A stretch of 64,000 nt of DNA, from the NCBI GenBank assembly GCA_963920635.1, contig OY987301.1, forward strand, positions 10,012,501 to 10,076,500, written 5' to 3'. The number at the start of each line of letters is the position of its first letter. The stretch's first letter is position 1. Source of the DNA: Pseudeuparius sepicola (taxonomy: Eukaryota; Arthropoda; Insecta; Coleoptera; Anthribidae). Below, in pieces: positions 12,849-56,900 of the stretch. The notes beneath the pieces are model-generated. The model was not told the origin of the DNA and ran no database searches. It saw only the letters and a program-made list of their open reading frames with translations. The position numbers and the translations under genes were made by a program.

Positions 12849-14719
12849 ATGGCACACTCTTCGGTGGGTCCCGCTGGGAAACGAAAAGAAATCTACAAGT
12901 ACGTGGCGCCATGGCCGCTCTACAGTATGAACTGGTCGGTGCGACCAGACAAAAGATTCAGACTTGCTTTGGGAAGTTTCGTCGAAGAATATAACAATAA
13001 AGTTCAGATAGTATCGCTCGATGAGGACAGCAGTGAATTTTCGGCCAAAAGCACATTTGATCATCCTTATCCGACCACCAAAATTATGTGGATACCTGAC
13101 AGCAAGGGGATATTTCCAGATTTGCTTGCTACTAGGTAAGACTGTTGGTTTTATTTGCTTTGGAGAAGAACAGGCCTGGCATTCTGAGCCAATTTTGCAT
13201 GTAAAAAAATCTTGAAAATAATCTGGGTAAAAAATTTTTTTAAATACTTTTTCTGAATGTGTAGAAAAGTACAAAAGTATTGCGCTGCCAACATTGACAT
13301 AGAAATAGGCCATATTTATGTTGTTCAATGATCATTACTAAACTACCTAAATTAAAATACCTAGGTATATCTCAACTATTGCGAATACTAAGAATTTTTA
13401 ATTTGTTTTTGTTCCAAAATTAAAGTTTTAAAGTTGCTGTCTCTACCATGATTTTTTGCGGAAAGTGTCAGCATTCAAAGTATTTGAAGGTTCATCTTGC
13501 CTATAATCGGGTTACTTTGATAATTTTTTATTTTGGAAAATGACGAATGTCCGAATGTCTAAAATGAAAGTAAGCTTATAAAATGAGATTATAGAAATAC
13601 CATAAGTACTAAGAATAGTTCTTAGTACTTATGATATGATATAGGTAGTTACTATTTTGATAATTTTTACAATAAATAGTTGGGTTGAGCTGAGATTTTT
13701 AAGATGGGGACATTGTATATCTAGGTAATGCATGTTTTGAAAACCACAAATTGTTGGAAATCAACGTCTTTTTATAAGCAAACAGCTTACGTTTTTTGAG
13801 TGGTATGCAATGTCTTATTAACTAGTCATTATCAAATCAAAGTTCTTTTATAAGCAAATATATTAAGTTTTTGGAGTGGTACATAATATCATAACTTGTT
13901 ATTATCAATTGGAACAAAAAATTCTAACGTAAATACTTATTTCGCCCATTTTTTTCTAGCGGCGATTACCTAAGAGTGTGGAGAGCCGGCGAACCCGACA
14001 CTAGACTCGAATGCGTGCTCAACAACAACAAGAACTCCGACTTTTGCGCCCCCTTAACCAGTTTCGACTGGAATGAGGTCGACCCGAACCTAGTCGGCAC
14101 CTCTTCCATCGACACCACCTGCACGATATGGGGCCTCGAGACCGGCCAGCTGATCGGCCGCGGAAACCTCGTTTCCGGCCACGTCAAAACTCAACTCATC
14201 GCCCACGACAAGGAAGTGTACGACATCGCCTTTTCCCGCGCGGGCGGCGGTCGCGACATGTTCGCTTCTGTCGGAGCCGACGGTTCGGTCCGAATGTTCG
14301 ACTTGCGCCATTTGGAACATTCCACCATCATCTACGAGGATCCCGCGCATACGCCTTTGTTGAGGCTCGCCTGGAACAAGCAGGATCCGAATTATTTGGC
14401 CACCATCGCGATGGACGCCTGCGAAGTTATCATTTTGGACGTGAGGGTACCTTGTACGCCCGTGGCCAGGCTAAATAACCATCGGGCCTGCGTGAACGGC
14501 ATCGCCTGGGCCCCACATTCGAGTTGCCATATATGTACGGCGGGTGACGACCACCAAGCGCTCATATGGGACATCCAACAAATGCCGAGGGCGATAGAAG
14601 ATCCGATATTGGCGTACACTGCCGCAGAAGGCGAAGTGAATCAGATACAGTGGGGTGCCACGCAGCCAGACTGGATCGCGATATGCTATAACAAGTCGCT
14701 CGAAATTTTGAGGGTGTAG
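12849..14719 (+). CDS. DCAF7: DCAF7 / WDR68, WD40-repeat adaptor protein (two exons)
   Basis: Join 12849-13135 with 13960-14719. The donor is ACTAG|GTAAG and the acceptor TTTCTAG|CGGC, with phase restored to read SGDYLRVW. The product is 348 residues, close to the family size of about 342. It is a WD40 beta-propeller: it opens [20 protein letters not shown], carries blades such as [20 protein letters not shown] and [16 protein letters not shown], and ends SLEILRV as in animal DCAF7. In this family the protein is a conserved scaffold that binds DYRK1/HIPK kinases and acts as a substrate receptor of DDB1-CUL4 ubiquitin ligases, in cytoplasm and nucleus. The 824-bp intron is AT-rich and exon 2 is strongly GC- and CpG-rich against its surroundings. 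Start chosen because the N-terminus matches the family. An AATAAA lies 130 bases after the stop. Confidence 0.95.
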
Positions 14720-16579: not shown

Positions 16580-18270
16580 GAATGGGACCTTTTCTATAGG
16601 TTGTGGATTTTCACTATTTCTATTCTTTATTGGAGCGTATATATATCGTTCGGTTTTCTTAAATCGGATAGTTATTACTTCACAACTGTCAAAATATAGC
16701 ATCCATAAACAAATGGTGCACCATTTAAAATACACCTCAATGGAAAATCCTATAGTTATATGAATTGTGCTAATATACACGTAATTCCCCGACACCCTAT
16801 ATTTATAAGGTGGATAGTTTTCAAAAATTGCAGTTTGTTTTTTCTGCAGTTTCATTTTGGGTGTTTCAAAACTATTATTATTGCCCAGCATTAAAATACA
16901 CAGTCCACATATTTATAGCGTAGGTACCTATATATAGAGAGAATATAGTTATCCTCATCATTTAATTTGCCTGTAATAAACCGAGATATTGTGAGATGTC
17001 ATCTTGTCACTAAATTGCAGTATAGTCCATTCACATTCACTCGGTAGGCAAACATAGTGGATGCTTATGTTAATTAATGATCGCTTATATTTTACTCGAT
17101 AAAGAAGAGTGCAGATGAAAATTCGAGAGATAAAGTGGCCAATGTGTGACAGTATACAGAAAGAAGTGTAATGAAAATTAAAAATCACGATATGGCGATA
17201 TGGCATTTGGCAAACGTTTTGCAATATTGTGATCAAATATTATATCTCTAGATTTCAATGGAATGCCAACAAAAATAAAAGATAAAATGTTCCACATTTT
17301 TTTGTCCCACAAACTGTTTACCTACTCTCGTTTTTGTGTTTTTTTTTAACTCAAATGGCCATGGCAAAATTTCGAGGTTTGATTTGACACTCGGGAAATT
17401 GATATTTTTATTTCATGAAACTTCCTGTTTCAAGGTAGTATTGCTTTGTGACACAAACTATTTTTATTTCATGAAACTTCCTGTTTCAAGGTAGTATTGC
17501 TTTGTGACACAAACTATACAATACCTAAGACAAGGGTTTAAGCACACGTTACTTATAAAATCTCCAATAAAAGACAGGCAAGCCAATTGATAAAAACATC
17601 AACGTGCTTAGATTTATTGATTTATATAATAATATACTTTTTTCATAGTTTTTAAAATAAATTGTACATGAATAATAAATTATTATAATATATTGTAGCT
17701 ATATATAGATTTAAATATCTCGTTTCATTTCAGAAAAACCTTTAAAAGCCACTTGCAAATTTTTTCTTATTGACCCAAATTGTGACTCGTTCACATATTT
17801 TATTCTGAGGTCCGTCCGTTGAGGTTAGGTAGTGTTTTCCCACTTTTCCTTAGAAAAGTGTCTTTTTTGGAGCTTTCACCTCAAAATGTGTTATTAAGGA
17901 ACCTTGTTCATCACGAAAAAATAACATTATGACATGAAAGCTACAGAAAGAAATTTTGCAAGTCTACTCAGTTTTTCACTCTGAATAAGTTTCCTTAATA
18001 ACATTTTGTCGTAAAAAAATCACTTATAGGGCTTCTTGAAAATTCGCTATTTTAAAAAATCATAAGAGGAGCAGGCCATGAAATAATTACCCAATCCAAA
18101 TACCACCGCCTATGAGATACTCTCCCTTGGGACTACCAATAAAAAATATAGACCATTATTTGTCTTCCTTGATCTTCATATATTTCCGAGATGTTCAGTA
18201 TGAAATTGGGACACACTGTAGGTACATATTTGTAAAGAAAGTTCTCAACCGATTTGTAAAAGTGCAATTT
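16580..18270. other. Gene-free stretch
   Basis: No exon recognised. It contains the 56-bp tandem duplication at 17403-17514. The minus-strand frames near 16577 and 16958 have no recognisable domain. Confidence 0.45.
17403..17514. repeat. 56-bp tandem duplication
   Basis: Two head-to-tail copies of a 56-base unit (17403-17458 and 17459-17514) appear identical by eye. This is a simple recent duplication with no coding content. Confidence 0.85.
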
Positions 18271-18579: not shown

Positions 18580-19410
18580 AGACCGTTATACCATAAGGAT
18601 CTTGGCATCAAGTTTCTTGATTCCAGCTAATTTTAAATGCCCCGACAGTAGGTACCTTTCCAACTTTTCTGTCTTCAATGCACAGATCTTGAACTATGAT
18701 AACAGGTGTACTCTTCAGTTTTGACGAATGAATGAATTTGAATGAACGAAATAATTTATTTGTATCAGATACAAATACAGAGTTCAGAACTACACTAAGT
18801 TATAAGTGAGCTATACATACCTAATATATAAGAAAGCCCTATAGGTACCTACCTTAATAATTAACAGATATAATAATACAGAATATTATATTATTACACT
18901 TTAGCCCATAAAGAAACAATACTGATTTGATATAAATATAGGTCTGTGACTTATACAAGTTTTTTTTGGACGTGGGTGACTAATACCTATACAAAACTTA
19001 CAAATCAATTATGATTATGCAAACAATATCCTCACAATGTAAAATTATACCCTTATTAAACCTATAATAACCCAAATACTACAACTGCGTCAGACGTTGA
19101 CTGAAGTTGGTAGACAAGGTGGATTCTTGAGTAATAAATACTCTGTTTTCGGACTTGCATTGTCTTTATTTGTTTGAAAATACACGACGTTTCGCACAGT
19201 GGTTATCTCTGACCGTTCTTAAGTGTAATGCTCATTAATGCTCAAGTATAGCTCAGTAGGTATAGCTCAGTGATATGAATTTATGTGATGAGCCATGAGC
19301 TTATTATCAGTCTTTTTATTGTGTATTCAACTTGAGCATTCCACCTAAGGTGGCAATCTATGTTTTTTATGTACACTTATACCTAGATATTTGACAGATT
19401 TTTGTGATTT
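18580..19410. other. Gene-free stretch left of the bacterial-type island
   Basis: No exon recognised. Around 19180-19230, read on the minus strand, is TTAAGA, about 20 bases, then GAAACGTCG, which resembles ends of Penelope-like elements; the CUGANGA box is altered, so it is weak. A short TTTATTTGTATCAGATACAAATA palindrome-like segment lies near 18757. Confidence 0.4.
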
Positions 19411-19414
19411 TATT

Positions 19415-19779
19415 TATCGGGTAATAAAGTAAGAAAAAAAGAATAGTTCTGAAGTTCCCTAATGCATTTACAGAAGTACCAATTAGCTGTACACATTGAA
19501 AATGCAGAGAAAAATAAGACAATTTACCTATTTGAATCTAGTTGGAAGAAAGCGTGTATTATAATCGAGGTAGGTAGGTATTAGAAAAATATTAATGAAT
19601 TACATACAAGATAAGCCGGCATTGAGCACTCAATATCACCTCATAAATTAGGACATTTTCTTTTTAGATGGATCAAGAAAAAAGGCGTAGATGAAGCATT
19701 AATTCAACATTATTCTGGTCACGACAGTCGTCAACCACTTAAAATATATTCAAAGTTATCACTCCTAGACTGTGTATGA
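19415..19779 (+). pseudogene. Bacterial-type tyrosine recombinase (phage integrase), C-terminal remnant
   Basis: The clearest part, 19624-19779, is an open 51-codon end of a XerC/D-type integrase: [14 protein letters not shown], then [20 protein letters not shown]. The family's HxLRH, GH and catalytic IY boxes are all recognisable, but the conserved Arg of HKLRH is Gly here. Upstream pieces in other frames fit the same fold: RIVLKFPNAF near 19440, then LAVHIENAEKNKTIYLFESS near 19480-19545, then KILMNYIQ near 19590. At least two frameshifts and a stop separate them, so the gene is dead. This class belongs to bacterial and phage genomes, not insect nuclear genes. It sits directly beside an IS6-type transposase remnant. 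Confidence 0.85.
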
Positions 19780-19784
19780 AAAAA

Positions 19785-20188
19785 AGATTAAAGCTGGATT
19801 TATTTATTATTTATTTAACGTAAGCATAGAGATATAAGCAAGCAGCGATAGACTTTTTCCGTAAAGCCTTTAAAGAGAATTGCCTTCCTGAGCCGTGATT
19901 TGACAAAAGCGGTAACAACACTGCTGCCTTTCACTACTTGAACGATAAAACGCGGAAATATTATAAAATGAAAATGCTACAGGTAAAATATCTAAATAAC
20001 ATAGTTGAACAGGATTATATAGATTTATCAAAAAACGTATCAATATGCTTGGCTTTAAAAGCTTTAACTCTGCTGCAATTACGATTTCAGGTATAAAAAA
20101 TTATACGTATCATTCAAAAAGACAAATAATTCCTACCAATAACAATCTTCCCACTTTTGAGAATTTTAAAACACTCATGGCCGCATAA
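19785..20188 (+). pseudogene. Bacterial IS6-family transposase remnant
   Basis: Translated in shifting + frames: FFRKAFKENCLPEP, a stop, then FDKSGNNTAAFHYLN, then QVKYLNNIVEQD. After a frameshift comes RFIKKRINMLGFKSFNSAA, and it ends ENFKTLMAA at the stop 20186-20188. This order (DKSG containing one catalytic Asp, KYLNN.VEQD containing the catalytic Glu, then GFKS) is the signature of IS6/IS26-family DDE transposases, including those common in Rickettsiales and related symbionts. One stop and one or more frameshifts inactivate it. The N-terminal zinc-finger part is absent. It ends 98 bases from the convergent end of the large reading frame at 20287. Confidence 0.85.
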
Positions 20189-20286
20189 CGCCCTTTCGCT
20201 ACTCTAAAATAACCTGAAATTATAGCTGCGGCAGAACCTTCTGGAAAAGTGTATCAACAATAATCAACATGCCCATTCAAAGTACA

Positions 20287-23200
20287 TTATGCTGCATAAT
20301 CCATTCCTTCACCTAAACTTGACATACTGTTATCATTTGATGAATATCCAGTTGCTACATCTGAATATGATGACATTTTATCATCATCTGAAGAAGAATT
20401 TGGAGTGGAGCAATCTGAATCTATCAAGCCAGACATTTTAGCAATAGCAAAGCCTACTTTATAATCAGAATTGTTACTCATATCATTCCACACAATTACA
20501 TCTATTATGTTTTCATCACATTCGCATTCTTCCTTAATTCGTTGATATTCCTGTACTAGGTCTGCAAAATCCATATCTGTTAAGTCTTCCTTACTATCAA
20601 GGATTTCATCCACTATATCACAGGTCAATTTATGATCACTATCATACAATTCTGTTATTTGATTAAAAATATCTTGAAGATCTTGACTATCATCAAAGCG
20701 ATCTATGACATCAATTACTCTATCTGAACCTAAAAACTTGATTTTTTCAAGATCCCAAGAAATTATTTCTACTAAATTCACCCCATGCGTTTTATTCAAA
20801 TTATAACGTTCTTCGTCATATTCACTGGAAAATAGAACAGCTATTTTTCTTAATTCATCAGACCATGTATCAGCTTTTATAAGATATTCTAAGTTAGTAT
20901 CATCTTCATCTGTAGTATTAGGTTGATAATCATATCCTCTGTCCTTAGTATATATTGCTGCACTGGTTACAACAGCCCCGGCATCTTTATATGCTTTTCT
21001 GATATTATGTAATTCCTGTGGTAATTTTTCTTTTACCATTATATTAGCTTTGAGTATATAATATAGCTTATTCAAGTCATTAAGATCTGTTGCAATAATT
21101 CTAAGTGTACCATAAGGGTTCATATCTGCACCAACTTGCTCATTTTTTGCTCCACTACTTACTAATAGCAACACTGGTACTTCTGTAATAAATAATCGAA
21201 TAGCTTCACTAATTTTTTCACTTGTAGCACTAGTGTAATCCAACACCATCACTGCTTCGGAATTCAGGTTATCTTTAATCTTTTTAGGATCCATTTTATA
21301 ATAAGGACCCTTAGCGGCACAGTGATTTAAATCGAAATATTTTACTACCCCTGATGGTACACTCAGATTTAAATTTCTTAATTGATAAATGTCTTGTACA
21401 AAATATTTCACCACATCATCTGTCTCGTAATACATATATTTCATATCAATTTTTTGTCTGCCCGCTTGGTATATTGATAAAAAGTGAGCTAAATTGATTG
21501 CTCTCATTCCGGTAGCTGCTGTTATCTTCCTAGAGTAAAAACTAGTGCCTTCAACACTAACTTCACAATCACTAGAGCTTCCATATCCATCTTCAGATTG
21601 TTGACCGCTGCTATTTCTTATAAATTCTAAATTTGCCTTCTCAATTATATGATTCAAACCCTTTATCTTCTGGCTGTTAATAACATAAGATAAATTTTCT
21701 TCAAAAACTGATGAAATATTTTTTATAATGCCCCAAAATTCGTTATCATCTTTAATAGCTTGATTTTCCTCGACCCGGAATTCAAATTGCCTATCGTTGT
21801 CATCATTGGTATCATTTACAGTTACTTTAATTGTATAAGTTATTTTTTTTAGTATCTCTCTTAAAGGTTTGGCAAAGTCTTTCGTATTATCTAAAGTATA
21901 TAGTAACTGTTCATGAGCATAATCAGCTAGTAAGTCAATGTACTTATTGTATCTTGTAATTTGATAAGAAACCTTTCTTCCACTTGAATCTCCCACTTTA
22001 CAAAGCACATTAAATAGACTCTCATCTTCTTCCCAATAATCAACCATTGAATGTCGTTTTTTAGTAGACTTCTTTTCATTATAATACGTAACTCCAGTGT
22101 TATGACAATCAATCTCCTCTTGACTAAGACCTAACTTTAATGTTGTTTTTGTTTTATTTTTATTAAGCAATGGTACTAAAAATTTAGTATTAAGTAATTC
22201 TAGACCTTTTGCTAGAACTGTAGCATAATATTTTGGTACAATCCCAATACTTATTCTAAAACTCTTTGCAGTTTCTGATACACTTGGAATATTATGACCA
22301 AAGCTTGCTCTATTAACTAATTCAATTGGGACATTGGAATTGTAAGCGACACTGTTCGTTATAGCAATGAAATATGCTATCACTATCTTATACAAACTAT
22401 TTTGTTCTTTTGTTGTTTTAAATGATAATTTAGCAAACTCTTTTATTTGCACCATAATGCATGGATAATCGTTTTCAAAATATACATCTATTTTACTGTC
22501 AGATATTTCGAGTGCTAAAAATTCTTTGACAACAGTACTACAAATATATGTTTTATACTGAAGCAACTGATCATATAACAAAGTATTATTATTTTTATTA
22601 ATTTCTTTAGGAATTAATGGATTTGTATAAAATATATTTTTATATTCATCATGCACCCATGGACTTTTAATACAACCAGTTTTCGATGGTGGAATGGTTT
22701 CTTTATTTTCACTACCTGATTTGTTTATATTACTATTTTTATATGTTTTACCAGACTTTTCCAATTTGGCAATTCTATCACAGTTACCACCTAGAGATGT
22801 TGACCGAAAATATGTCGCCCAATAATCTGGATCTGACATAGCAAATGCACTAGTTTCTTTAAACCTCACTTTATATTCACATCTTGGGAAAAATATTTTA
22901 TTATTGTCATGAAAAGATACATAATTATTTTGTATTTTAACTATTTTTTTGTCACCATAAACCTCTTGTAAGTCTTTTACAAGTTTGGCAGTATCATTTC
23001 TATCTAGAGAATCATAATACTCTACTCTTGCTACAGTATTGTTTTCAAATTTAACTACAACACCAACCCAATGTCCATCGTCATTCTTCCCAGTTAAATA
23101 AGGAGTTAGTAAAGTCCTATTTGAATATCGTACATTATTTGTTTTTTCATCATTGAGAAATTTAATTAGTTTATTTTCTTTTTCAGCAATGGGAGCAGAT

Positions 23201-23490
23201 ATAAAAACATTATTCCATTCTCTCAGACGCTCTTGATCTAGCCTAATACTCAATGTTCTACTAATATCTTTATCTATATATTTATATTTAGAACCTGGAA
23301 CAGTGTAAGTTTCGGTCTGATAACTTTCACATATCCTCCTGCTCGCGTTCACCTCGCTGTGGCTGCAGTGTCCGATTCTCTCTGCTGGTCTTGTCAGGTT
23401 TATGGGGGGTACGATAATCTCTGAAATCTGTAAGATATACCTATGTAAAATTATATACAAATACCAAATATAATATGCAAGTATATACAT
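20287..23490 (-). CDS. Large intronless protein of bacterial-symbiont type (1067 codons), probable horizontal transfer
   Basis: I do not recognise a named orthologue. The 3.2-kb frame has no intron and lies 98 bp from dead bacterial IS6 and integrase genes. Visible parts: an Ulp1/C48-peptidase-like stretch at about residues 70-190 (YIDKDI at 71, GHWVGVVVKF at 139, VEYYDSLD at 156). The Q...CG box expected after it is not visible, so protease activity is doubtful. A second module at about 657-800 has TGMRAI, then VLDYTSAT, then SSGAKNEQVGAD, loosely like the phosphate loop, Asp and SxxK lysine of PLP-dependent Cys/Met-metabolism folds; this is inference. The C-terminal 200 residues are acidic and Ser/Asp-rich. 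No signal peptide is convincing: the hydrophobic residues 1-22 read like translated AT-rich flank, and the true start or a 5' exon is uncertain. Large multidomain proteins with Ulp1-like domains are typical of Wolbachia, Rickettsia and Cardinium effectors. Function unknown. Confidence 0.75.
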   Translation of the reverse strand: MYILAYYIWYLYIILHRYILQISEIIVPPINLTRPAERIGHCSHSEVNASRRICESYQTETYTVPGSKYKYIDKDISRTLSIRLDQERLREWNNVFISAPIAEKENKLIKFLNDEKTNNVRYSNRTLLTPYLTGKNDDGHWVGVVVKFENNTVARVEYYDSLDRNDTAKLVKDLQEVYGDKKIVKIQNNYVSFHDNNKIFFPRCEYKVRFKETSAFAMSDPDYWATYFRSTSLGGNCDRIAKLEKSGKTYKNSNINKSGSENKETIPPSKTGCIKSPWVHDEYKNIFYTNPLIPKEINKNNNTLLYDQLLQYKTYICSTVVKEFLALEISDSKIDVYFENDYPCIMVQIKEFAKLSFKTTKEQNSLYKIVIAYFIAITNSVAYNSNVPIELVNRASFGHNIPSVSETAKSFRISIGIVPKYYATVLAKGLELLNTKFLVPLLNKNKTKTTLKLGLSQEEIDCHNTGVTYYNEKKSTKKRHSMVDYWEEDESLFNVLCKVGDSSGRKVSYQITRYNKYIDLLADYAHEQLLYTLDNTKDFAKPLREILKKITYTIKVTVNDTNDDNDRQFEFRVEENQAIKDDNEFWGIIKNISSVFEENLSYVINSQKIKGLNHIIEKANLEFIRNSSGQQSEDGYGSSSDCEVSVEGTSFYSRKITAATGMRAINLAHFLSIYQAGRQKIDMKYMYYETDDVVKYFVQDIYQLRNLNLSVPSGVVKYFDLNHCAAKGPYYKMDPKKIKDNLNSEAVMVLDYTSATSEKISEAIRLFITEVPVLLLVSSGAKNEQVGADMNPYGTLRIIATDLNDLNKLYYILKANIMVKEKLPQELHNIRKAYKDAGAVVTSAAIYTKDRGYDYQPNTTDEDDTNLEYLIKADTWSDELRKIAVLFSSEYDEERYNLNKTHGVNLVEIISWDLEKIKFLGSDRVIDVIDRFDDSQDLQDIFNQITELYDSDHKLTCDIVDEILDSKEDLTDMDFADLVQEYQRIKEECECDENIIDVIVWNDMSNNSDYKVGFAIAKMSGLIDSDCSTPNSSSDDDKMSSYSDVATGYSSNDNSMSSLGEGMDYAA

Positions 23491-23787
23491 ACACTTGTTG
23501 GTATCTCATGAAGGCCATAAGGCAACGGCTGTTTGTACAACCCGTTGCTTCCGACACTCAAATCGGGAATCTTAAATGTTATCATCAGAAATTTTGTATT
23601 ATCTGAAAGTAAAATTTCCATGTGTTTTAGTGGGAAAATTATTTTTTACAGTTAGAAAAAATAAAGAAATAAAAAGTAATTTGTTGACGACCTGCAGGAA
23701 ATACTGACCGTTTGAGTATTGAAATGGATGATATTGCCAAGATGTGTGCAATGTCAACATTGTAGAATTTTGCGAAATATAATTTAA

Positions 23788-24580
23788 TACAGAATGATTT
23801 TTTTAGGACTACCACCGCGATTTTCTTGCTTATTTTGAAACCTAAGGAACAAAAATGTGTCAATTTTGGACAGCTAAGTGGTGCTGTAAAAGCAATCGGC
23901 ATCCAACTTGCCGCGCAATATAAAAAAAATCAAATTAAGCAAAACTATTAATAGTCGTGGAATGATTATTGAAAACTTTTATATTAAAAATTGATGGCGC
24001 TGGAGAAGCTTTATCCATCCAGGTGCTCAGATAGTTTCAGCAAATTACACAGGGTTTTAGGCTCTCTTGAGGGCATGGACATTTTTGTCTATCTGAAGTT
24101 TTTTTAGCACAGCGCCAAAAGTTGGGCATGGAGGCCCATTTCTTTTTTAACGTCTCCTGGCTTCCCAAAATTGCCATATTTTTTCTTACGTATTTTCTGT
24201 GCGGCCTAAAGTAAAAGTAAAGAGAAAATCGCTTAATAAGAAATAAACAAAAAAATTCATAGCCTCAAGAAAGCCGAAGACCCTGTGTAATTTTTTCAAC
24301 TATCTGAGTACCCAGTTGCATAAAGCTTCTTAGTGCCATCAATTTTCAATATAAAAGTTTTCCTCTATCTCTTAAAGTACTCATGCTACGGCAATTAATT
24401 GTTTTGCTCAATTTGAGTTTTTTTTATATTGCGCGACAAGTTGGCTATGGATGCCGATTTCTTTTGCAGCACCACTTAGCTGTCCAAAATTGCCACATTT
24501 TTGTTTCTTACGTTTTTTTGTTGGGCCAAAAATAAGCGAGAAAATCACGGCGGTATCAGTTCTAAAAAATCATCCTGTAT
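23788..24580. repeat. Foldback element with TACAGAATGATT ends, 0.8 kb
   Basis: The left arm (23788-24110) is mirrored at about 24250-24580. Paired landmarks are TATTGCGCG..AAGTTG with its complement, CACCACTTAGCTGTCC with its complement, and CACAGGGTTTT with GACCCTGTGT. Arm identity is about 80-90% by eye. No coding capacity. Confidence 0.75.
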
Positions 24581-24896
24581 ACGTCTTGCAGTTAAAATAA
24601 AAATCGTTACAATTATTTTTAGAAAGCATTACAAACAACAACAATAATACGATTTAACCCTACATACCCTCTTTCCTCTTTGTGATTAGCGATTACTTTT
24701 TTAATATAAAATAAAAAAAATGCATTTTAAAACTTAAACTTGCTACTTGTTCCATCTGTGTAATTTGCACCTACCCTGTATAAGTAATAAGTTATTGCAC
24801 ATACAATATTATTTTTTATTGTTTATATAATATTTAATTTGCACAAACAGATAGGTATGGATAATAGGTATAGATTCTCTAATCATCCACTTTATA

Positions 24897-25300
24897 TACA
24901 TTGTGTTTCACTTTGAGCCTTGTTGAGTGAAGGAATGATTCACTCAACGCTTTGAGTCAAGACAATTCCATATATTATATTGTTCGAAATATTCGCCGGT
25001 GTTCAAAAACTTTTTTCCAGCCTAAAGTACTCGAAGCGCTGTACGGAGGGTTTTGAGCTATGGCCAATTCGATGGCACTATCCATTTTATTCTTAAAAAA
25101 GATGCCTATAATACGGTTATGTGATTGTTGGGTGTCGCCTTTTAATAACAGTAGTCCATGAAATAGCACAATTTCAAAAAAATTTAGCACATAACGTAGA
25201 GGTCTTCGAGTACTATAGAGTGAAAAAAAGTTTTTTGAAAATCGGTCCATCTTTCGAAAAATACGGAATTGTCTCGACTCAAAGTGAAACACACCGTATA
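24897..25300. repeat. Short foldback element, 0.4 kb
   Basis: TGTGTTTCACTTTGAG near 24902 and its complement CTCAAAGTGAAACACA near 25278 are the ends; GAGTCAAGACAATTCC pairs with GGAATTGTCTCGACTC inside. No coding capacity. Confidence 0.65.
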
Positions 25301-25436
25301 TAGAAATTGTTTTATAAAGTATTTCGGAAATTTCACTTGATAATAATACCTACCCATATGTACAATATATTAAGATTTTGCTTGGAAATAATTTTACATT
25401 TTTCATTTTTGTGCATAGCAGAATTTAACAGTGTTC

Positions 25437-25536
25437 AAGATTTTAACTTAATTAGACTTCTTAGAATTTTAACTTTCTTAGACTTCAAGATTTTAACTTA
25501 ATTAGACTTCTTAGAATTTTAACTTTCTTAGACTTC
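25437..25536. repeat. 50-bp tandem duplication
   Basis: Two apparently identical 50-base units, 25437-25486 and 25487-25536, each containing AACTTAATTAGACTTCTTAG. Each unit is itself made of two related AGACTTC-ending halves. Confidence 0.85.
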
Positions 25537-26582
25537 GGAAAATAGAAACTTTCCTTTTTAAACAAGAATTTACTAAATCATGCCTTGAATTTTGAATAAA
25601 GGATCTTTATTCAAAGACATCATGTGATTGTACTTTTACCATTGATTAAGGTATTCGGATCCTTATTCAATACTTTTACTTTAGACTCACCAAGGAGTTT
25701 TGCCCAAGAGATATTTAGTCTTATATCATTACTCTTTTCGTCCAAAAAAGCCTTCACAGGAAAATTGCTGACCATTGTTGTTGGATCGTTAATCTAAAAA
25801 TAATTTTGATTAATAGTTCTGCAAGGTAGAATAATATACTTCTCAATAAAATAAATTTCATTACCTACATTTTGTTATTTTGTACATTTTTGGGACTACA
25901 AAATTCCACGGTTTTTGCTTTTGCGATATAAGTGAATTTATTTTGCTAACAAATCTTATTTTTTATACGTTTTTTAATCCCGTACATAAAAATTTATACA
26001 GACTGTTCCTATATAGGTATATTATGGCAGCAATAGCAATATATATTAATAAAGATAAATGAATCTATTTATATACCCCTGCGATTAATAATCGATCTTT
26101 AAAAACGCGAAAGGGCCAAATTTTCAATCGCAAAACAATACCGTGATATTTATATTTATCGCTTTATAGGATATATTATCGAATCTTCGAGTATTTGATC
26201 TGTACCTAATAAATGGCGAAAAAAACTACTGCTATCTGCCAACTAAGGAATTATTTTGGATTTGGTCCTACAAAATTCAAATATTCGTAATTGTGATGAT
26301 TGTATTTTGATTTATTTTGTTGGTGTTTATGTTTCTGGTAGGTTTTATAAATTTAAAATAATTTTTATAAGAATCACAGAATGCTTTTCCTCTTTATGAT
26401 TTTGATCAGGTATTTATGAAACAAATTCTACATTTCTATTCGCATTTAGAAACAAACCACGCCCACATCTAGACTCTCGGATTATTATTTGTTATATGTC
26501 CTATCAAAAAGATTAGCTTTCATATTACGGATATCAAATTGTACATAATAGCACAGAATAAATAGCTTTGCAACAGAAGCCT

Positions 26583-26783
26583 CCTTACGGACATGTGTCA
26601 AAAATAAGCGAGTCTCCATTTCAACTTACAGAAAGACAGACGATATTTTAAGCATAAATTTGGTTCTAATGCAATCTCTTTGCTGTGTAGATTATAGTAA
26701 AATCAAATAAAATGCACATTATTCATGTATTTAGGAGAGATTTCGCTAAAAAGCGAGTCTCCTTTTGACACATGTCGTTAAGG
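26583..26783. repeat. Small inverted repeat pair, 200 bp
   Basis: CCTTACGGACATGTGTCAAAA at the left is mirrored by TTTTGACACATGTCGTTAAGG at the right with two mismatches. AAGCGAGTCTCC is also present twice in direct orientation inside. Probably a miniature element. Confidence 0.6.
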
Positions 26784-27685
26784 AATGGTCTGTATTACTC
26801 GTTAGTCTGTGATAATAGGTAGGTACCTCAGTGTTCCTGCATCAACTTTTCCTTTATTTGAGTAAACTTAAAATTTAAAAACACAAATGAATTTTTGATG
26901 TAAACTTCAAGCATTCGGTATAATCCGGAAAATATTAGAATTCGAATAAAAACTAAAATATTTGGCACTTTAAAGTGGAAAAATATATTTAGCTAAATAT
27001 AGGATCGATAATAATGTACTATGTATATAGAATAAATACAAATTATTCTGCACTTATTGAAACGAATCGAATTAAACTGAATTATAGCTAGCGCTATTAT
27101 AAGTAGAAAGTAAGGTAATATAGTAACGGATATTTTCACAGATTCCCTTAGCACCTAAACTAACTTTTGTAGGTACTAATAAAACTTCTGAATTCAGCCA
27201 TTTAGATACCTACTTAATATTGTAATTGAAATTTCACCAAGCCATATTATTTATATATGATTATTTCCCACATAATAAGGTAGCTCCTTTCTTAAAAATA
27301 CAACAAATCATATATATATGCCTTTGCTAGCGATAAATTCCCTTGGGAAATATAATATCCAAAGAGGAATTTCCCAATAACATGTGATTTTATCACTTTA
27401 TTGCTTAGCAACCGCAGATCTGCTCTGCTCAATACAAACGCCGACTTGTTAAAAATTGTCAGTTCTAAATTATGCAGCTGAAAATTATTTTGCGGTATTA
27501 CTAGACATTGTATACCTATATAAATTAATTTATGTAATTTATACATTGCCAATAGACCTCTGTTTAAATTTACCTTTAATTATCAAAATAGGCCATTAAG
27601 AGGGTCCAAAAATCTAGCATTATAAATAAAATAAATAAAAATCAAAAACTGGACCGAAAATAAAATGCATCCTACTTACAAATAT

Positions 27686-28592: not shown

Positions 28593-29427
28593 ACCGGGAG
28601 ATAGTGACAGATTTTTGGACGTGATTTTACTCAGTATGCCTTGCAAAGGGCATTATGTGGCACATATTCTCACAATAATAAGGTATGAATCAGAGAGTCA
28701 TCCTGGGTTCTTCATGTGAAAAACTGGGTTTTCAATTATTCGAAAAATATGCGTTTTGATATGATTTTATACAGGCTGCCATGTGTTTTATAATGAAGTT
28801 CAAATAGAAAATTCCTCGGCATACCGTTAGGGTGGGTCCAAAGGGCTATTATTGCCACGTGATCTTGTATTTTAATAATTAATTTTTCGACGTTTCTAAA
28901 CAGGCTGCCAATGAGAAGTATGCAAGTTCTTATTATGAAACTTCTGAAGAAAAGATGGCATACCGTTTGCGCATATCCAAGTACACTTAACATCGAATAA
29001 ATCGTTTAAATTATTAAATAACATTCAATTTAAACAGTACTTGGACAAGCGTACAAGGTATGCCATCCTTTTTTCAGCATTTTCATAACAAGCACTTGCA
29101 TACTTCTCCTTGGCAGCCTGTTCAGAAACTAATTATTAAAATACAAGTTCACGTGACAATAGCCCTTTGAACCCACGCTAACGGTATGCCTATGGTTTTC
29201 CGAGGATTTTTCTATTTTGAACTTCATTATAAAACACATGGCAGCCTGAGTAAAATCATATCAAAACGCATATTTTTTGAATAATTGAAAACTCAGTTTT
29301 TCATATGAAGAACCCAGGATGACTCTCTGGTTCATACCTTATTATTGTGAGAATATGTGCCACATAATGCCCTTTGCAAGGCATACTGAGTAAAATCACG
29401 TCCAAAAATCTGTCACTATCTCCCGGT
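28593..29427. repeat. Foldback element, 0.83 kb, inside a wider inverted repeat
   Basis: ACCGGGAGATAGTGACAG at the left and CTGTCACTATCTCCCGGT at the right are exact mirrors. The arms stay similar for about 400 bases each (TGCCTTGCAAAGGGCATTAT and its mirror). A separate outer pair (AGTCTAGAGAATACTATAAG at 28507 and its mirror near 29520) brackets it, so two elements may be nested. The minus-strand frames at 28736 and 29301 are arm sequence. Confidence 0.75.
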
Positions 29428-38297: not shown

Positions 38298-38783
38298 TTA
38301 TTTGACAACATCTAAACATTGAGAACACCGCACAACCACCTGACTCCCATTAGTAGTCAACCTCAAATCGCACTTTCTACACTGCCTGTCCGGACTCCGC
38401 TGCGTGTTGCTAGTATACAAAACTGCGTCGTCTGGAATCGGTTGACTGAACTCCGGACACGGATCTTTGTAATCGGCATCCCCATTATCCCCCTCCCCGA
38501 GAAGGCATTTCTGCAACCTGTCGTCCAATTGGGTCGGCTTGGCCGTGGTGCAGTTATAATCGTCTGGCGCGTCCGATGCGACCTCTTCAGATTGGACTGA
38601 CGGAGGGGGCGGTGGGCCAGTGGGCTCTGACGCGATTCTGGGGCAGCTAGCTACCTGCGGGTCTTGCTGGGATTGCTGAGGTTGCCCGGTTTGCTGGCAT
38701 ACTTTTCGTCGTCTACATCTGGCGCTCGCTTCAGTTAACATGCAAAAAAGGAGGGCCCACAAAAGAAGTAATTTCATCCGCAT
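38298..38783 (-). CDS. Small secreted cysteine-containing protein, unknown family
   Basis: A single-exon frame of 161 residues. It begins with a clear signal peptide (MRMKLLLLWALLFCMLTEAS) that should cleave after the small residues, leaving a mature chain starting RCRRRKVC. The middle is Pro/Gln/Ser-rich with low complexity (TGPPPPPS), and the end has paired cysteines (CRKCDLRL, then VVRCSQC). Eight cysteines lie in the mature part, and possible N-glycosylation sites are NCT and NGS. I do not recognise the family. The stop codon overlaps an AATAAA hexamer, so the 3' UTR would be very short. Its first 34 codons and upstream region are repeated in tandem (see 38682-40269). An alternative Met is two codons in. 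Uncertain whether a 5' exon exists: TTTCCAG precedes the ATG directly. Confidence 0.65.
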   Translation of the reverse strand: MRMKLLLLWALLFCMLTEASARCRRRKVCQQTGQPQQSQQDPQVASCPRIASEPTGPPPPPSVQSEEVASDAPDDYNCTTAKPTQLDDRLQKCLLGEGDNGDADYKDPCPEFSQPIPDDAVLYTSNTQRSPDRQCRKCDLRLTTNGSQVVVRCSQCLDVVK

Positions 38784-53930: not shown

Positions 53931-56900
53931 TCAAATGGCGCTGATGTCCTCGCCCAGGATGTCGTTCGCGGAGTTCACCCTCGTCTGCCTCACCGAGTCG
54001 CAGCTGAAGTGCTCGCTGGAGTACTCGCCGAACGATCCGTTCCGCCTGGCCACCACCAGCGTCTTGGTGCCGTAGTCCGTCACGTACTTGTCGTTGGTGT
54101 TGAGCGCCACCGACTGGTAGCCGCACTTGCACCAGGCCGGGTAGTGGGCGGTGAGGATGCGCTTGAACGCCTCCCTGAACTCGGTGTTGAAGATCGAGTA
54201 GATGATGGGGTTGAAGGCGGAGTTCGAGTAGCCCAGCCAGGTGAGGATCTTGAAGGTGATGTCGGGGATGCACGTCTTGCAGAAGGCGGCGACGATGTTG
54301 ATGCAGAAGAACGGCACCCAGCAGATGAGGAACACGCCCATGATGATGCCGACGGTGATGGCGGCCTTGTGGTCGCTCACCTGGAACAGAAACATATTGG
54401 GCTTGTTTATGGAACCCCTAGTTAGCCAATGTATGATCTGGACCAACACTGTATTAGCTGACCTGTGCATAGCGCTGTTTCAAGCGGTCGCCACTGGCGC
54501 CACATGACGAAACAAATTTACCCGGTGGTTTAATGCTAAAACACCATTGTTGCAGAATCCTTTATAAAATAAAAACATGCAAATATGTCTGTTACAACGA
54601 ATTTAATGTTCAAAATAAAATAAAATATTTGTTTGTTATGTCCCTCTAATTTGACAAGTTCGCATGGCATCTTTCCATATATTTTCTTGAGAAAAGCGAG
54701 TCTAAAAAGCAAGCAAGAGTATTTGGTACCTTTTGGTACTTTTTAGTTGTAGTGTAAGTAAGCATAAAACGCATTAGATTTTTCAGTTTCTTCTTTATAT
54801 GGAGGACTATTGGTTCGCTTTGGAGCTGTGAACAAAATTTTCTATTTTCATTTTTGCATACGTTACAAAATACTCTTCCAAAATAATATCTAGAATTTTC
54901 GCTTCTTCAGCTGGTTGATCAGATCAACCATTAATTCCAAAATAGTGGTTAATCTTCTGCAATTCACCTAATGGTCTGTGCAGTGTGCATACTTCTAAAT
55001 ACTGGACGCAAAGACAATTCGTTACCGTAAAAAGAAGGCAAATTGTAATAAAGCTGGATATTTAAAATTTGGGACATTTTAAACGTCAGTAACTGACATA
55101 CCTACCAATAATCACAACATACCCCCTATAACCTATAATAAGTCGCCACTTTTTTCGTCGAGTGGCGCCACCCCAGTCCGTAAATAATAATGAAATATGA
55201 CGTCATGCTCGGGTCTTTAATATAGTGTCGGTCCAGGTGTGACAGAATCATAAGGATACGAGAGCATTGGATACAACCAAAAGATGGCGCTAAAAATTAA
55301 AGTAGCCCAGTCATTACCTACTAATTTTCTTCTCTTAAAATCTACAAAAAAAAACAGCTGGACAACTTTAATTTTTGCGAAATCTGTCCTCTGTATCTAC
55401 TGTATTTCTGTCATGTCCCTATATCAGTGTCATCCATTGTTAACTAGATTATCGATAAACAAGGATATTAGTACCTAACTAAAAATAACTGAATTTGTAT
55501 TTTTTGAATTAATTATTTGACTTAATCTAGGTTGAATAGCGTCTCAGGCCACCTATAGGAAAACGAAAGTAAAGATTAGAGCGCAACAAAATTTACAACT
55601 TTTGACAAACGACGCTCTGCGTCGCTAGATATATTTTTGTCATATTTCGGTGGCGCTATTCTAAGTAACTTTTGTCTTGAATGTTTTGTTGGTTTTTTCG
55701 TTTACAAATTTACGGGCAACAATATACAAAAAAAATAAAGAAATTCATTCCCATTTCTATTATATATAATGACGTTAAGCAAACAATATAATATACTAAC
55801 AACTCCTTATCATAGGATATTTAACAAATGAAATAAATAACATATTTATAATAAAACGCATTATTTAAAATGTTGTTTGCATTTTTTAACATGTTTCCAA
55901 TTATTGTCAAACAAACTTCTCCATTTTTTGTTTGAAAGTATTAGTCCAATAAAGATGTGCTCGGCTTATAGGGGTCGCAAAAAAAATACAAACAGGATGA
56001 TTTTTTTCAGGTTTGCTTGGGGACTGCCTCCTGAGTGTCCAACCAAAAGATCACACTCGAACTCCTGGTACGAATTGAGGGTGGTTTCCTAAACGATATG
56101 GGTGGTTTCCCAAACATTTTTTCAGATCAAAATGACTGTAGAGAATCAAAGTATGAACAACTTTTCCTTTTGTACCTCTAATACAGAACGAGTTACAGCG
56201 TATTACTTATATGACAAAAATTCTGCACATTGCAGGGGTGGGCTTTTCCAATAAAATGACCTTAATAAAAGTTTCAACTTTTTCTTCTAAACTTTTTTGT
56301 GTCTCCAATACTTAATGATTTACAGGGCATTGTATTTTAAATACATTTTTGTCATATATCTAATGCCCTGTAAATCATGAAATATTGAAGACACAAAAAA
56401 ATTTATAAGAAAATGTTGACCAGAAGTTCATCCTCGAAAACTTCTATTAAGGTCTTTTTTTGTAGAAAAATGTTTATAAGACTACCCCCTGTAGCGTGAT
56501 GAATTTTTGTCATAGTAAGTAATACGCTGTAACTCGTTACGTATTAGAGATACAAAGTTATTCATACTTTGATCCCTTACAACTTTTATTAGAGTCATTT
56601 TGCTCTAAAAAATGTTTAGGAAACCACCCATATTGTTTAGGAAACCACCCTATAACTCAATTCGTACCACGAGTTCGAGTGTGATCTTTTAGTTGGATAC
56701 TCAGGAGGCAGTCACCATTCTACCAAGCAATTCTGAAAAAATCATCCTGTTTGGATTTTTTTTGCAAAATTGACACCTCTATTGGACTATAAATGGCAAA
56801 TGGCAACGAAGACAAAATAATAGTAATTGCCCCCCTCCCCCCCTGGGGTACTCCTAGTTTGGAGTATTGTAAGGGTGAGAATTATATTGACATATTCCTT

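Follow-up and report, generated by a model that had tools for sequence, protein, structure and literature searches.

In the 64,000-nucleotide stretch of Pseudeuparius sepicola DNA analysed here (the window; C4:10012501-10076500 of a 769-Mb assembly in 16 contigs), about 4 kb of bacterial-type DNA carries most of a 1067-codon open reading frame (ORF) whose first codons lie in host DNA. We consider it fairly probable that this DNA entered a duplicated host gene at a splice donor and created a hybrid host-bacterial gene. The presence of a bacterial-type insertion in the chromosome, with an in-frame junction to a host exon, is well supported by the assembly. Its bacterial origin and chromosomal site are indicated by bacterial family relatives, by host DNA on both sides and by the contig that carries it, which is 68.5 Mb long and chromosome-scale.

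The foreign stretch has its left edge between positions 19229 and 19474 and its right edge at about 23292, and no N occurs anywhere in the window (Table 1). On the left, the nearer of two dispersed repeats shows that host DNA extends at least that far; because both repeats are dispersed, they are no proof that the host duplication reaches them. On the right, the host block has a second copy about 30 kb away, with 75-88% identity per piece. An empty-site match for the left flank was not found (score 20, reached in 193 of 200 shuffles). The original prediction of bacterial DNA in this chromosome is supported: host repeats lie to the left of the island, a duplicated host gene lies to its right, and the DNA between them has bacterial relatives.

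Table 1. Features of the insertion and its host flanks (window positions)
Feature	Position	Strand	Remarks
Second dispersed host repeat, left of island	17835-18224	.	at least 114 own-genome matches, window's own included
Dispersed host repeat	19096-19228	.	at least 60 own-genome matches, window's own included
Decayed tyrosine recombinase remnant	19474-19776	+	PF00589 match slightly under cut-off, plasmid relatives
Decayed IS6/IS240-type transposase remnant	19845-20125	+	sub-cut-off PF13610 match, plasmid relatives
ORF, 1067 codons	20287-23490	-	no internal stop; stop codon 20287-20289
Conserved core, ORF residues 203-845, probably partly PLP fold-type I	20956-22884	-	G661, D751, S779, K782, R797
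Bacterial-type N-terminal part, ORF residues 67-205	22876-23292	-	partial sub-threshold C48/Ulp1-like peptidase match
Host block	23293-26963	-	colinear, in pieces, with second copy C4:10006095-10010052
Host exon C, encoding ORF residues 25-65 and parts of split codons	23295-23420	-	paralogue C4:10006097-10006231, same splice acceptor
Host exon B, same gene copy	23495-23602	-	splice sites set by eye in each copy
Host exon A	25691-25793	-	ends chosen by eye

Exons A, B and C of the host gene are short minus-strand open stretches whose ends look like splice sites and whose junctions are consistently in phase 1. Exon A looks FN3-like, and Pfam gave no match for it; the three exons joined together matched no Pfam family, and their best match among PDB sequences had an E value of 0.22. 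Net length differences between the two copies of exons A, B and C were 15, 21 and 9 bases, that is, whole codons. Gaps in the nucleotide alignment were divisible by three in five of eight cases in the exons (4/4 in A and C, 1/4 in B) and in 7 of 47 cases in non-coding sequence. Mismatches between the exon C copies fell at codon positions one, two and three in 2, 3 and 7 of 47 sites each, and over 103 codons of the exons the nonsynonymous and synonymous divergences were dN = 0.134 and dS = 0.396 (Nei and Gojobori method, NG86).

The end of exon C, marked here by a slash, reads CAG/GTGAGA in the paralogue and CAG/GTTCTA in the window, which match the donor consensus at 8/9 and 5/9 positions, respectively. 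Past the window donor site, the frame stays open and leads into the bacterial-type protein. The right edge of the island lies at, or a few bases from, the splice donor of exon C, and the foreign gene shares the strand and reading frame of that exon. Exon C, a stretch of host DNA that has a paralogue and bears some signature of coding sequence, appears to form a metazoan interval within the frame of the ORF.

The ORF consists of residues 1-24, from the intron before exon C, residues 25-65, from exon C, and residues from about 67 to 1067, of bacterial type. The original prediction had treated the frame as one bacterial gene; because host intron and exon sequence makes up the first ~66 codons, this holds for about 1001 codons. 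An open run of 1000 codons would arise by chance with a probability of ~3e-33 at the base composition of the window. The ORF is single-copy in the genome, and its only other match at E 0.001 covers residues 9-69 (C4:10006086-10006274). After Met 1, the next methionine is residue 218, within the conserved core, so that an ATG start for the full bacterial-type domain is available only through the host part or at the intronic ATG.

Under the favoured reading, bacterial-type DNA would have broken in at the exon C donor in one copy of the duplicated host gene. Since the window donor is off consensus, pre-mRNA from the host promoter would presumably stay unspliced after exon C, and the transcript would read through exon C to the stop at 20287. 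The product would be a host N-terminus (exons A, B and C and any upstream exons) joined to a bacterial-type protein of about 1000 residues, with a core resembling a PLP-dependent enzyme and its candidate key residues kept. At ~10.006 Mb, the donor of the other copy is still close to consensus, and one duplicate may therefore have been free for capture.

The large gene probably carries the fold of vitamin B6 (pyridoxal phosphate, PLP) enzymes, as judged from a structural model. The model of the core (668 residues; predicted local distance difference test, pLDDT, 87.4; predicted template modelling score, pTM, 0.91) was matched by PLP fold-type-I enzymes over ~200-250 residues, about a third being aligned. 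The best Foldseek match had an E value of 1.0e-5, with template modelling scores of 0.22 by query and 0.35 by target, and all 50 matches listed by a second structural aligner were aminotransferases or other PLP enzymes. The structure alignment, A4, took in 40 of 62 proteins. The window protein would thus share its fold with aspartate aminotransferase, BesB and CndF over about a third of the core model, but differs from the known fold-type-I enzymes in having no sequence match in PDB or in the Pfam PLP families. No family was assigned to it when the ORF or its alignment was compared with Pfam, NCBIfam, PHROGs and PDB sequences.

Of the 73 aligned rows, 72-73 retain G661, D751 and K782 (D751 in 73/73, K782 in 72/73). 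K782 and D751 may correspond to the Schiff-base lysine K258 and its partner aspartate D222 of aspartate aminotransferase, as suggested by motifs rather than by a residue-level superposition. P0016 is the sole row of the 73 with Glu at the candidate PLP lysine. In the available text of PMC11696984, the words pyridoxal, PLP, aminotransferase and transaminase do not occur.

Upstream of the core, residues 129-168 matched the C48 peptidase profile PF02902 (E = 0.0018; 18.6 bits, cut-off 20.7). A complete C48 catalytic domain was rejected, as the match is below the cut-off, covers only profile positions 88-121 of 217 and leaves 34 residues before the core. Residues 70-205 gave only chance-level matches in tblastn (best E 5) and one match in a PDB search (E 0.85).

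Relatives numbered 24 proteins in a first search and 61 in a profile search, each protein search scoring the ~8000 candidates with the most shared words; the family is rare and has no Pfam model. Source names included Lasioglossum baleicum, Lycorma delicatula, Hypothenemus hampei, Ixodes pacificus, I. hexagonus, I. persulcatus, Hydra vulgaris and Corallococcus exercitus. We took the animal copies to be chromosomal from these names and from contigs that are mostly 10-180 Mb long. A scan of GTDB contigs with the first alignment gave 36 pattern matches and no relatives, and a scan with an alignment rooted on the bacterial members gave 36 pattern matches with five relatives, in gammaproteobacterial, Coxiella-type, Tatlockia, Amoebophilus and Pseudoduganella records. 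At E 1e-5, and counting the centre genome, the family was present in 13/143 genomes of the order of the Tatlockia record, 1/36 for the Coxiella-type, 4/36 for the gammaproteobacterial and 2/194 for the Amoebophilus record; in two phylum samples the centre genome alone was found (1/398 and 1/395). Plasmids, phages and viral contigs yielded no family relatives. Among the titles and abstract openings listed in literature searches, which did not extend to preprints or supplements, none names the family in animals.

Some relatives join the core to OTU domains (P0016, P0052) or ankyrin repeats (P0037). In this they resemble the multi-domain effectors of intracellular bacteria, in which OTU, C48-like or ankyrin parts occur; the C48/RickCE-like matches in the family are sub-threshold. 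Our use of "effector" for the family is an assumption drawn from architecture and from bacterial lifestyle.

Two trees were built, with 64 and 73 rows. Partial cores (P0048, P0050, P0060, L006) were left out of the first; L007, on a long branch, was also left out of the second, which from the new bacterial matches received only L025-L033 and L036. The window protein grouped with P0001 (support 98 in both trees) within a five-row clade made up of the window protein, one row each from Lasioglossum and Hypothenemus and two from Lycorma, by source name (Shimodaira-Hasegawa-like approximate likelihood ratio test, SH-aLRT, 99 and 98). Five Ixodes rows grouped with two further rows in one clade of the first tree (100), and the two Hydra rows of that tree stood in two other places. 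In the second tree, every animal row fell in a 37-row clade without a named bacterium (support 71). A non-metazoan origin of the core interval was upheld, in that the deeper family rows are bacterial; the nearest rows are animal. The two Lycorma delicatula rows, P0002 and P0003, have near-identical cores and are both listed with a 182-Mb contig, so the captured gene seems to have been duplicated in that species.

Past constraint on the protein along these branches, in no specified host lineage, is clear from sequence comparison. Differences between the window protein and P0001 affect 1/55 of the most conserved columns and 84/229 of the least conserved, and the window protein deviates at only 1/67 conserved columns, by a D-to-S change common to P0001 and P0004. 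The original prediction had derived selection from the contrast between an open frame and its decayed neighbours. This contrast is weak evidence, because the decay may predate the transfer and have been present in the donor already. The host exon joined in frame is the better pointer to domestication.

As predicted, the intact frame (20287-23490, minus strand, without a stop) lies beside remnants of mobile genes that are broken by stops and frameshifts. The integrase pieces, 19474-19572 and 19615-19776, share a single frame with two stops between them; the second matched PF00589 (E = 6.5e-6; 26.5 bits, cut-off 27.1) and the first matched nothing in the Pfam scan. The first integrase box, expected as HxLRH, is HKLGH, with Gly replacing the usual Arg. 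The IS6-type remnant runs from 19845 to 19895, meets a stop, continues from 19899 to 20039 and then changes frame (20009-20125); its pieces matched PF13610 below the cut-off (E = 3.4e-4 and 0.075), the 17-amino-acid first piece being below scannable size. The last recognisable piece ends ~160 bp from the ORF, rather than the 98 bp given earlier. Comparison with bacteria, a check proposed with the original prediction, matched the remnants to plasmid records and found bacterial family members for the large frame. The integrase remnant matched 89 plasmid records, with an integrase annotation in 19 of 20 matches listed, and the IS6 remnant matched 426, with an IS6 transposase annotation in 11 of 20 matches listed.

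Elsewhere in the window, an inverted repeat at 28593-29427 (862 aligned positions, 86%) has a second copy at C4:~10002300 and is a palindromic host element. A host WD40 exon (13976-14719, plus strand) presumably belongs to a DCAF7-like gene. A host exon of a rhodopsin-type receptor lies at 53931-54470 (minus strand). A Cys-rich open frame of 161 amino acids (38298-38783, minus strand) has a start that by eye resembles a signal peptide, and a Pfam scan found no family above the cut-off for it.

Several observations weigh against a working hybrid gene. The exon boundaries were picked by eye, and substitutions between the copies are not fewer in the exons (45/310 bases) than in alignable non-coding DNA (116/1177), which argues against strong constraint on the exons. 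Joining in frame would occur by luck one time in three. A search with residues 18-204 scored 197 candidates and gave no relative at E 1; the precise point at which bacterial DNA begins is therefore inferred. Changes on the window lineage are few, and the contrast between conservation classes is weak (0/60, 3/69, 7/65, 3/83 and 6/67 from the most to the least conserved columns; 19/344 in total); the constraint may stem wholly from bacterial time. Third-position guanine-plus-cytosine (GC) content is 0.196 in the frame, compared with 0.72 in the WD40 exon and 0.92 in the receptor exon; the frame is thus unadapted to the host, an observation that leans towards a young gene. The unadapted GC content and a conservation that may be bacterial would suit a nuclear insertion of symbiont DNA that is recent and has no function, with mobile genes broken beforehand, a gene still open for lack of time and a junction made by luck, an account that we regard as a serious possibility, somewhat short of even. 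At 1% neutral divergence, 1002 codons would collect 1.7 disabling changes without indels (probability of none, 0.19) and 4.4 if 0.1 indel is allowed per substitution (0.013); for 0.5% the expectations are 0.8 and 2.2 (0.44 and 0.11), and at 5% they are 8.3-21.8. The gene has therefore either been in this host for a short time or been under selection, and if it arrived recently, below roughly 0.5-1% neutral divergence, an open frame is expected anyway. What speaks against a functionless insertion is that a random breakpoint would rarely fall near a splice donor and also agree with the gene in both strand and frame. The terminal branch of 0.13 changes per column and the path of 0.3 to the nearest relative also count against recency, but need not represent host time.

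The foreign third-position GC would also fit reads of a resident symbiont joined to a host contig. Such an assembly artefact is very improbable: the foreign DNA is only ~4 kb long, is flanked by host DNA on both sides without any N and has one genomic copy, and no such gene was found in plasmids or in the GTDB contig scan with the first alignment. Because the nearest relatives come from more than one insect order, we also considered movement of the gene between animals by a mobile element or virus, instead of from bacteria each time. The five-row insect clade and the 37-row clade that takes in every animal row and no named bacterium are in keeping with this route, but integrase and IS6 remnants with bacterial relatives, deeper family members that are bacterial and the lack of relatives in viral contigs or phages make it unlikely. 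The hybrid-gene reading is left as a good candidate for a working gene in this host, as far as DNA sequence can tell.

The locus is also a candidate member of the chimeras formed by horizontal gene transfer (HGT) in arthropods, which were described by Kapoor et al. (2026, PMC13389597). In that paper, HGT-chimeras hold an acquired and a metazoan interval in one reading frame, as the window locus appears to do, and 56/104 have a non-chimeric relative of the HGT or metazoan part in the same genome, as does the window species. In contrast to them, the window locus is known from DNA alone, and its host part is short and its bacterial part large. Lycorma, Lasioglossum, Hypothenemus and Legionell- are absent from the main text of that paper. 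The insect gene oskar is, like the window locus, a eukaryotic-prokaryotic fusion; oskar occurs in more than 100 insect sequences and has a known role (Blondel et al. 2020, PMC7250577), whereas the window junction looks young.

If the hybrid-gene reading is true, a bacterial gene would have gained promoter, start codon and splice signals all at once when it broke into a spare gene copy at a splice donor. More tentatively, a PLP-fold, effector-like family of intracellular bacteria may have been captured repeatedly by animals (this species, the three named insects, three Ixodes species and Hydra), here as the C-terminal part of an expressed hybrid gene; we hold this combined proposal to be possible rather than probable. 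It would point to a bacterial family, probably of enzymes that act inside animal cells, that animals repeatedly acquire.

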